Assembly (NCBI GenBank): GCA_012843025.1
Contig: DURT01000051.1
Location: forward strand, 1 to 63,832
Direction: 5' to 3'
Source: Tissierellia bacterium
GTDB taxonomy: Bacteria > Bacillota > Clostridia > Tissierellales > Sedimentibacteraceae
Length of the DNA: 63,832 bases
Shown: positions 56,074-58,958 of the stretch, one piece after another
How the letters are laid out: every line of letters begins with the position of its first letter
Numbering within the stretch: the stretch's first letter is position 1
Notes under the pieces: generated by a model
Told to the model about the DNA's origin: nothing
What the model saw: only the letters and a program-made list of their open reading frames with translations
Database searches by the model: none
Translations under genes and position numbers: made by a program

Positions 56074-56095
56074 AAACCCCGGCGAGCCGGGGTTT
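56074..56095 (-). terminator. GC-rich terminator of the copA gene
   Basis: AACCCCGG/CCGGGGTT palindrome with a short loop (56075-56094) and a T run on the minus strand, just after the copA stop codon. Confidence 0.9.
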
Positions 56096-56106
56096 AAAAT
56101 TTCATT

Positions 56107-56316
56107 TTACTTTACTTCTACTACTTCATATCCTGCATCTGTTACTGCCTTTGTCAGTTCATCATTTGCTACTTCCTTGTTAAGTGTAACTTCTGCTGAT
56201 TTTTTTTCTAAATCTACCACTGCATTTTCTACTCCATCTACTGCCTTTAATGCTTTTTCAACGGCTGCCTTGCAGTGTCCGCAGCTCATTCCTTCAACTT
56301 TTAAAACTTTCTTCAT
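56107..56316 (-). CDS. copZ: possible separate CopZ copper chaperone from an internal start in copA
   Basis: Inside copA, GGAGG (complement of 56324-56328) lies 7 bp before an in-frame ATG at 56316. From there the 69-residue protein MKKVLKVEGMSCGHCKAAVE... is exactly a normal-sized CopZ chaperone. So the same stretch may be made both as the tail of CopA and as a free protein. Seen: the site, ATG, frame and length. Not seen: evidence that it is used. CopA-CopZ pairs from one gene are known in E. coli, by frameshifting. Confidence 0.5.
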   Translation of the reverse strand: MKKVLKVEGMSCGHCKAAVEKALKAVDGVENAVVDLEKKSAEVTLNKEVANDELTKAVTDAGYEVVEVK

Positions 56317-58680
56317 ATCATTTCCTCCATTTTCTTTATTTTCATCATTTATTGATTCGTGAGAAGAATTGACAGTTTCCTTTTCTCCCACGTTGTCATA
56401 ATGTCTTGTATCTTTAACAGTTCTTACAGGCTTAAAAAATTTCAATCTCAAAGCATTGGATACTACTGAAACGGAGCTTAAACTCATGGCTGCCCCTGCA
56501 AACATGGGATTTAGCTTCCATCCCAATAAAGTATAAAACATTCCTGCTGCTAAGGGTATACCTATGGTATTGTAAATAAATGCCCAGAACAGGTTTTGTT
56601 TGATATTTTTAATAGTTGCCTTACTTAACTGGACGGCCGTAACTGCATCCAACAAATCGCTCCTTATTAAAACAATGTCTGCAGATTCTATGGCAACATC
56701 CGTACCTGCACCTATGGCAATTCCTACATCGGCTCTGGCAAGAGCAGGAGCATCATTTATACCATCACCTATCATAGCAACCTTCCTGCCTTCTTCCTGG
56801 ATTTTTCTTATTTCTCTTTCCTTGTCCTGAGGCAGTACTTCTGCAACAGCTCTACTAATGTTTAACTCTTTCCTTATTGCTTCGGCAGTATTTTTATTGT
56901 CCCCTGTAAGCATTACAACTTCAATTCCCATTTCCTGAAACTCTTTAATTGCTGCTGCGCTGGTAGGTTTAACAACATCTGCTACTGATATTATACCTAA
57001 GACCACTCTTTCATCTGCAAAATATAAAGGAGTTTTTCCTTCTTCAGCAAACTTGGTGCTTTTCTCTTCAAAATTTCTTATATCTATATTTTGCTCATTT
57101 ATAAGCCTTAAATTGCCTAAATAATATATTTTATTGTTAATTCTTGCTCTTAACCCTTTACCGGGAATTGCTTCAAATGCTTCTACCGGATAAAGATCTA
57201 ATTTTAATTTTTCCGCTTCTTCCACTATGGCATCTGCTAAGGGATGTTCCGAGCCTTTTTCTGCCGATGCAGCTATTCTAAGCATTTCTAATTCATCTAT
57301 TCCATCAGCTAATAAATCTGTTACTTTAGGTTTTCCTTCCGTAATGGTTCCTGTCTTATCCATTACTACTGTTTGTACGTGATGAGCTATTTCCAATGCT
57401 TCAGCCGACTTAATAAGTATGCCGTTTTCAGCACCCTTGCCAGTACCTACCATTATAGCCGTAGGGGTGGCAAGACCCAAGGCGCAAGGACAGGAAATAA
57501 CTAGTACAGCAATTCCTATGGAAAGGGCAAATTCAAAGGTTGCTCCTAAGATAAGCCATACAATTGTAGCAGCAATGGCTATGACAATTACCACAGGAAC
57601 AAACACACCACTTATTTTATCCGCCATTTTCGAAATTGGTGCTTTTGAAGAACTGGCTTCTTCTACCAACTTTATTATTTGAGACAGGGTAGTGTCATCT
57701 CCTACTTTTTCTGCTTTAAATTTAAAGAATCCAGATTTATTAATACTTGCTCCTGTTACCTTATCTCCTGCTTTCTTTTCCACGGGAATACTCTCCCCTG
57801 TAAGCATGGACTCATCAATAGATGTATTGCCGAAAACTATGGTGCCGTCAACAGGTACTGCCTGCCCTGGCTTTACAATTACAATATCTCCTATTACTAC
57901 ATCTTCCACAGGAATTTCAATTTCCATTCCGTCCCTTTCCACCAATGCTGTCTTAGGAGATAAATCCATCAGCTTTCTTATAGCATCGGAGGTTCTGCCC
58001 TTTGCCCTTGCCTCCAAGAACTTCCCCAAGGTTATAAGAGCTAAAACAACGGCAGCAGATTCAAAATACAAATCCATGGAAAACTGCCTCACCATGTCCA
58101 TATCCATGTGTCCTAAGCCATAGCCTATTTTATATATTGCATAAACTCCGTATGCTGCAGCTGCAGAGGTACCAATGGCAATTAAGGAATCCATGTTGGG
58201 AGAACCCATGAACAAGGTTTTAAATCCCACCTTGTAATACTTGCTGTTTACAACCATTACGGGTATACAAAGGATAAACTGTGTAAATGCAAATATTAGC
58301 GCATTTTCCTCCCCGTGGAAAATTCCCGGCAAAGGCCAGTTAAGCATGTGACCCATGGAAATATAAAACAAGGGGATGGCAAATATCATGGAAACTAAGA
58401 GCCTTTTTTTCATTTCGTCAATTTCTGATTTATCTTCTTTTACCTCTTTTGCTTCCGACCGCCTTTTCTCCGAGGATGAAGCTCCGTATCCTGTGTTTTC
58501 AACCACTCTAATTATATCTTCAGTGCTAAGAAGAGCATCATCATATTTTACCGTCATGCTGTTAGTAAGTAAATTTACGTTGGCTTCAATAACTCCCTCA
58601 GTCTTGTTTATATTTTTTTCTATTCTTGCTGAACATGCAGAGCATGTCATACCTGTAACATCAAATTTTTCCGTTTTCAT
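56107..58680 (-). CDS. copA: copper-exporting P-type ATPase with C-terminal CopZ-like domain
   Basis: 857 residues. N-terminal heavy-metal domain with GMTCSACSARIEK (CxxC, residues 11-16), eight helices, the Cu-transport motif SCPCALG (near 396), phosphorylated Asp in DKTGTITEG (near 441), SEHPLADAIVEEAE, and GDGINDAPALARADVGIAIGAG. After the last helix a linker (about 745-788) joins a complete second HMA domain from Met789 to the end, with GMSCGHCKAA, i.e. a CopZ chaperone in frame. See the internal start below. It follows csoR by 14 bp. Confidence 0.95.
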   Translation of the reverse strand: MKTEKFDVTGMTCSACSARIEKNINKTEGVIEANVNLLTNSMTVKYDDALLSTEDIIRVVENTGYGASSSEKRRSEAKEVKEDKSEIDEMKKRLLVSMIFAIPLFYISMGHMLNWPLPGIFHGEENALIFAFTQFILCIPVMVVNSKYYKVGFKTLFMGSPNMDSLIAIGTSAAAAYGVYAIYKIGYGLGHMDMDMVRQFSMDLYFESAAVVLALITLGKFLEARAKGRTSDAIRKLMDLSPKTALVERDGMEIEIPVEDVVIGDIVIVKPGQAVPVDGTIVFGNTSIDESMLTGESIPVEKKAGDKVTGASINKSGFFKFKAEKVGDDTTLSQIIKLVEEASSSKAPISKMADKISGVFVPVVIVIAIAATIVWLILGATFEFALSIGIAVLVISCPCALGLATPTAIMVGTGKGAENGILIKSAEALEIAHHVQTVVMDKTGTITEGKPKVTDLLADGIDELEMLRIAASAEKGSEHPLADAIVEEAEKLKLDLYPVEAFEAIPGKGLRARINNKIYYLGNLRLINEQNIDIRNFEEKSTKFAEEGKTPLYFADERVVLGIISVADVVKPTSAAAIKEFQEMGIEVVMLTGDNKNTAEAIRKELNISRAVAEVLPQDKEREIRKIQEEGRKVAMIGDGINDAPALARADVGIAIGAGTDVAIESADIVLIRSDLLDAVTAVQLSKATIKNIKQNLFWAFIYNTIGIPLAAGMFYTLLGWKLNPMFAGAAMSLSSVSVVSNALRLKFFKPVRTVKDTRHYDNVGEKETVNSSHESINDENKENGGNDMKKVLKVEGMSCGHCKAAVEKALKAVDGVENAVVDLEKKSAEVTLNKEVANDELTKAVTDAGYEVVEVK

Positions 58681-58694
58681 ATCTTCGCCTCCTG

Positions 58695-58958
58695 CTACTT
58701 GGATATCTTGTTTATTATGGAAATAATTTCATCAATTTTATCATCTTCATTTCCTTCTATAAAAGCTTCCTTCACACACATATGCATATGAGCCTTCAAA
58801 ATTTCATTGTTTGCCTTTCTGAGTATTGAATGAACTGCCAATATCTGATTTGAAATATCTATACAATATCTGTCTTCTTCAACCATCTTTAAAATACCTT
58901 CAATTTGTCCGGCAGCAGTTTTCAACAGTCTGTTAATTTTTTTCTTGTCAGCCTTCAT
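58695..58958 (-). CDS. csoR: copper-sensing repressor CsoR
   Basis: 87 residues, DUF156 family helical repressor. Cu(I) ligands Cys32, His57 and Cys61 are in place (YCIDIS, AHMHMC), the pattern that distinguishes CsoR from FrmR/RcnR. Releases its operator when copper binds. The gene sits directly before copA with a G/C-tract operator upstream. Confidence 0.94.
   Translation of the reverse strand: MKADKKKINRLLKTAAGQIEGILKMVEEDRYCIDISNQILAVHSILRKANNEILKAHMHMCVKEAFIEGNEDDKIDEIISIINKISK

Follow-up and report, generated by a model that had tools for sequence, protein, structure and literature searches.

A fused copA-copZ gene of Bacillota in which a proposed internal start may add a free chaperone to a copper pump

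The window (the whole 63,832-nucleotide stretch of DNA analyzed here, from a Tissierellia bacterium) carries a copA gene in which a copper pump and a CopZ-like domain share one reading frame. By sequence, the 857-amino-acid (aa) product is assigned as a copper-type P1B ATPase (CopA), ordered as an N-terminal HMA domain, the Cu-ATPase core, a variable linker, and a C-terminal CopZ-like HMA domain. It scores above the cutoffs of TIGR01511 (copper-translocating; 601.8 bits, cutoff of 397) and TIGR01525 (653.7 bits, cutoff of 346.25) and below that of the Escherichia coli-type CopA equivalog NF007952 (713.6 bits, cutoff of 1316). The CPC motif at residues 397 to 399 and the DKTGT phosphorylation motif at residues 441 to 445 are both invariant in a 13-sequence alignment. 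The 69-aa tail matches the full Pfam HMA profile PF00403 with residues 4 to 64 (62.6 bits, cutoff of 24.8), and when taken alone it falls narrowly below the NCBIfam CopZ-type cutoffs (NF047957, 78.6 versus 85; NF033795, 74.8 versus 91; TIGR00003, 60.7 versus 62).

A Shine-Dalgarno (SD) sequence, GGAGG, lies within the coding sequence, separated from an in-frame ATG (Met789) by the 7-nucleotide (nt) spacer AAATGAT. A sequence-only reading of this DNA had described the CopA C terminus as a CopZ-size domain preceded by these in-frame signals; the sequence confirms this, and the coordinates that it gave bracket the CopZ part correctly. Upstream of copA lies a gene for a CsoR-type metal-sensing repressor, and the order and strand of the two genes indicate that they likely form one operon. 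The inverted repeat 3' of copA is a possible terminator and is absent from the output of a simple scan. In the mRNA of the window, the SD can pair weakly with an upstream UUCUUCU. The total fold of a 100-nt stretch in the window is no better than that of shuffled sequences, and no RNA structure control is indicated there. The positions of these features are collected in Table 1.

Table 1. Features of the fused copA-copZ locus, and HMA-only frames elsewhere in the same genome
Feature	Position	Strand	Evidence or remark
Fused copA-copZ gene	56107..58680	-	857 aa, single open frame
Two HMA matches in fused copA	58486-58665 and 56125-56307	-	Domain search
Internal Shine-Dalgarno GGAGG within coding sequence	56324..56328	-	Sequence
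Internal in-frame ATG (Met789), proposed free-CopZ start	56314..56316	-	Sequence and homologue comparison
CopZ reading frame inside copA	56107..56316	-	69 aa up to stop, motif GMSCGHC
Variable A-rich linker, 39 aa (KPVRTVKD...NGGND), from last pump segment to Met789	56317..56433	-	
CsoR-type metal-sensing repressor gene, upstream of copA	58695..58958	-	Pfam PF02583, 89.6 bits
Inverted repeat AAACCCCGG-CTCG-CCGGGGTTT, then T, 3' of copA	56074..56095	-	Spotted by eye
HMA-only frames in the window's genome (L003, L004)	G000 C36:4213-4404 and C66:38983-39150		Beside other P-type ATPases, not close to CopZ

A search of the family covered 27 genomes. In the window's own genus code, where those members that have names belong to Sedimentibacter, the junction is readable in 19 genomes (18 genes compared side by side and the partial gene L054), and all 19 are fused, with GGAG-N8-ATG ahead of the CopZ domain. 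The family's two other genera (G001 and G026; L051 and L052) are likewise fused and carry the site. Linkers in the genus, including that of the window's gene (L002 in this comparison), range from 27 to 70 aa, yet GGAG-N8-ATG is identical in 18 of 18 genes; the internal signals therefore look maintained rather than left over. Median identity in the genus is 74% for the CopZ domains and, under a lenient global alignment, 47% for the linkers. The sequence-only reading had suggested that one gene could yield both a fused and a free chaperone, and this part is borne out by the comparison. Its other part, a recent loss of the stop codon between copA and copZ with leftover start signals, does not agree with the fused state of the family's other genera, with signals that look maintained while linkers vary, or with a CopA tree (some of its branches weak) in which many separate-copZ genes sit within mostly fused clades. 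Relatives with separate genes and a stop between them are absent from the 19 readable same-genus junctions. Fusion without the ribosome site in every relative, the outcome that would have spoken against the reading, is the opposite of what these 19 genomes and 142 of 146 fused genes overall show. A fusion of once-separate genes at some older time is possible.

The stops in relatives G003 and G005 reflect slightly shorter C termini and do not split copZ from copA. An assembly error as the source of the fusion as such is contradicted by the presence of the fused gene in 142 genomes. L023/L045 (G008) has a 7-residue insertion (SFFKNDK region) after the internal ATG and ahead of the CopZ domain; the SD and ATG on its upstream side are retained.

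Searches at the order, class, and phylum levels covered 150, 291, and 348 genomes and gave matches in at least 133, 234, and 248 of them, respectively. Stretches were chosen among the matches listed, favoring those that reach the query end, and the resulting 146 fused and 61 split genes thus do not represent a prevalence. Genes without a stop in the stretch, with N, or without the CPC[A/S] motif were dropped before counting, and identical C termini were kept once. This left out L050 (G010) for N, the truncated L012/L048, and L054, which has no CPC part. A start was counted if its SD energy was -6 kcal/mol or better, and sites of -8.3 kcal/mol or better were taken as the strong class. On this basis, 142 of the 146 nonredundant fused genes have an in-frame start codon (136 ATG, 5 GTG, and 1 TTG) and an SD right before the last metal-binding domain. 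In 116 of the 142, the G of GMxCxxC follows the start at a distance of exactly 8 codons, and the SD ahead of the CopZ start belongs to the strong class in 137 of the 146. Four fused genes (L019, L105, L158, and L251) are without an internal start. Group codes are available for 130 of the genes, which represent 49 families and 89 genera; 48 of these families and 86 of these genera include one or more genes with the start. Thinning by pump-core identity (limits of 75, 65, and 60%) leaves the share with the start unchanged (89/93, 46/49, and 24/25, respectively).

Several genes of this wider set deserve individual mention. Cultured species with the fused gene include Sedimentibacter hydroxybenzoicus DSM 7310 (L010) and Ruminiclostridium sufflavum DSM 19573 (L017). 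L098, L100, and L102 (G100, G097, and G078) encode two C-terminal HMA domains, with a start codon and SD ahead of the last one alone. In L168 (G413), the linker is longer by two VGADIIRPRDVEGAVPY-type peptide copies, which may represent an interspersed repeat, and the SD and ATG are kept. L019, L021, and L026 are clostridial-type copA genes on contigs labeled as Bacteroidetes or Deltaproteobacteria metagenome-assembled genomes, pointing to either transfer or misbinning.

The history of the fusion was approached with a FastTree phylogeny of 207 pumps, 146 fused and 61 not (L026, a frameshifted copy, was entered as split). This CopA tree requires at least 12 changes between the fused and unfused states. 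A large clade is mostly fused and has many unfused (separate-copZ) genes nested within it, and several branches are weak. A small fused clade (L126, L129, L130, L142, and L144) stands beside unfused genes and may mark a second origin. The fusion is old: fused forms are found in 49 family codes and reach deep into the CopA tree. Transitional states are also seen. In L252, a single in-frame TAA interrupts the linker, and both the CopZ frame and its SD are intact downstream; in L116 the stop and start overlap, with the SD located inside copA. Pumps that stop short of CopZ are often followed by a separate copZ with an SD, but some unfused pumps have none nearby.

These data bear on the view that the internal site is a relic, in which a stop codon was lost, the genes fused, and the old copZ start signals have simply not decayed. 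The internal start does resemble the starts of separate copZ genes, where the SD is of the strong class in 37 of 37 cases (pump starts, 89.7% of 155), and because the two look alike, the internal site probably descends from a separate copZ start. A lack of decay is hard to reconcile with fused forms in so many family codes and so deep in the tree, and with an SD and ATG that stay in place while the linkers around them diverged in length and sequence. It is also at odds with codon usage. The mean SD energy is -10.18, versus -7.35 when the 7 codons ahead of the start are shuffled synonymously, and 0 of 300 shuffle sets reach the observed mean, also when genes are thinned at 60% identity. We therefore regard undecayed remnants as a very unlikely explanation.

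A second view holds that the fused pump alone matters and that the SD-like run either pauses the ribosome or merely accompanies a favored G/E/K-rich linker peptide. K, E, N, and G are indeed abundant in the linkers, and the synonymous shuffles still average -7.35. Compared with -10.18 observed, this value means that the amino acids used, through their purine-rich codons, account for part of the SD signal and that codon choice strengthens it further. Gene by gene, the same test is significant at 0.05 in only 18 of 115 genes. Permutation of the linker codons gives a mean of -3.3, and 0 of 200 permutations reach the observed value. The energy at the CopZ start was taken as the best among start codons 4 to 20 codons ahead of the motif, a best-of-range rule shared by the tandem-HMA controls, with other internal ATGs scored at one site each. 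Scored in this way, 108 of 3,720 other in-frame ATGs inside the fused genes have a strong-class site, as does the second HMA domain of an N-terminal pair in 1 of 24 cases. Such sites further occur at 1.6% of 1,413 other linker positions and in 6.1% of codon-permuted linkers. Where the C terminus holds a pair of HMA domains (three genes), a strong-class site precedes the first in 0 of 3 cases, and the last has the SD.

The absence of the SD at other HMA borders thus argues against a pause or by-product, as does the start codon itself, which a pause would not need and which is present at the CopZ start in nearly all fused genes, GTG and TTG included. Moreover, the SD occupies two main codon phases with different residues (54/54/3 among 111 genes), and the hexapeptides preceding the start are mostly distinct (97 of 111). 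Because phases vary and peptides differ, the feature that is kept appears to be a nucleotide signal and not a peptide. On this evidence, a pause or peptide by-product is very improbable. The RNA around the CopZ start is weakly structured (60-nt folding energy of -2.0 versus -11.9 kcal/mol at other internal Met codons), partly because the region is A-rich; G+C is 0.30 at CopZ starts versus 0.46 at other internal Met codons.

Also very unlikely is the third view, that free CopZ arises from a short transcript of an internal promoter or from linker proteolysis, with the SD serving the short mRNA or nothing: E. coli rpn genes-within-genes have internal transcription starts according to the accessible text of PMC10327210, and the linkers are long and probably exposed, but a simple consensus scan found no minus-strand site from 57669 to the CopZ start (11 sites in the region versus 9.7 expected), and proteolysis would make both SD and start codon unnecessary.

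Stand-alone CopZ frames were sought in 109 fused genomes, 105 with an internal start and 4 without, among open frames of <150 aa. With a score limit of approximately 48 bits, set after seeing the data and mixing two scoring scales, such frames occur in 2 of the 4 genomes without the start (G149 and G221) and in 4 of the 105 with it (G292, G494, G646, and G393); the Fisher P value of 0.0145 carries this post hoc limit and counts related genomes singly. G669 and G428, both without an internal start, have no separate CopZ frame of approximately 48 bits or more. The open reading frame at L201 (G221:C299) went unscored because the wrong frame was picked. Among 25 genomes with the start, 6 (G001, G026, G074, G086, G208, and G304) have no HMA-only frame of <150 aa at all. 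Two further HMA-only frames of the window's genome (G000) score 43.5 and 34.3 bits and carry the motifs LTCPSC and LNCANC; they presumably belong to other metal ATPases nearby. In G393, a separate CopZ-like frame (contig C110, 1250-1441) lies directly upstream of the fused copA with an internal start.

Taken as a whole, the comparison of homologues makes it highly probable that the single gene copA gives rise to two products, the pump with its attached chaperone and a free CopZ, and that the internal start is kept by selection. The in-frame start and SD are kept beyond coding constraint, as the sequence criterion for a gene-within-gene demands. Initiation at the N terminus would give a copper pump with the CopZ-like domain tethered at its C terminus through a presumably flexible linker, and initiation at the internal SD and ATG would release the last 69 residues as free CopZ. 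Free CopZ would bind Cu(I) in the cytosol and pass it on to the pump, and the tethered copy would load or regulate its own pump. A single CsoR-controlled mRNA would govern both products, and the proportion of tethered and free chaperone would depend in part on the internal SD.

We lean slightly toward a broader proposal, that a pump plus a free chaperone from copA evolved at least twice: by 5' frameshifting in E. coli, and by 3' internal initiation across much of the Clostridia-like Bacillota. In the latter, the start would have been kept since the old fusion, SD strength would set the tethered/free ratio, and a separate CopZ gene would tend to take over where the start is lost. If this is true, the C-terminal metal-binding domain of such pumps is a disguised chaperone gene, one-protein annotation overlooks a second protein in many Bacillota, and there is a second, mechanistically different route to a pump and chaperone from one gene. 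The natural series of fused genes with the start, fused genes without it, overlapping stop-start genes, and separate genes lends itself to probing the roles of tethered versus free chaperone. No report of a dual product from a fused copA-copZ gene was found in the open-licence PMC literature, which is weak evidence of novelty.

The E. coli copA gene and its CopA(Z) product were reportedly described by Meydan et al. in 2017. According to the accessible portions of PMC5009743 and PMC9548414, E. coli copA yields a free chaperone of 70 residues through -1 frameshifting. As far as these portions go, the two systems would be alike in that a single copA gene is the source of both the pump and, from one of its metal-binding domains, a free chaperone of approximately 70 residues. 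They differ in that the E. coli product comes from the 5' end by a frameshift, whereas the route proposed here is internal initiation in the same frame, with its own SD and a 3'-end product. Genes-within-genes with internal in-frame starts are described in the accessible text for rpn (PMC10327210) and Cas11b (PMC11899642), in which the C-terminal part of the protein is also made separately from an internal start, as proposed here. In those accounts the genes serve defense and the product was demonstrated experimentally; the present case concerns a metal pump with its chaperone, and comparison points to the product.

Separate copA-copZ operons of other Bacillota (L064, L065, and L086) have the same gene order and the same type of SD and ATG before copZ; a stop ends copA first in these operons, whereas the frame runs through in the fused gene. 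In Archaeoglobus fulgidus CopA, one metal-binding domain (MBD) is C-terminal. With metal-binding domains at both ends, this pump resembles the fused CopA. The accessible part of PMC11970713 describes two MBDs in it. The same part reports that Archaeoglobus CopZ delivers Cu(I) straight to the membrane part of CopA, whereas the isolated pump MBDs failed to do so in vitro. Because of this difference, as given there, a free and an attached chaperone need not be interchangeable.
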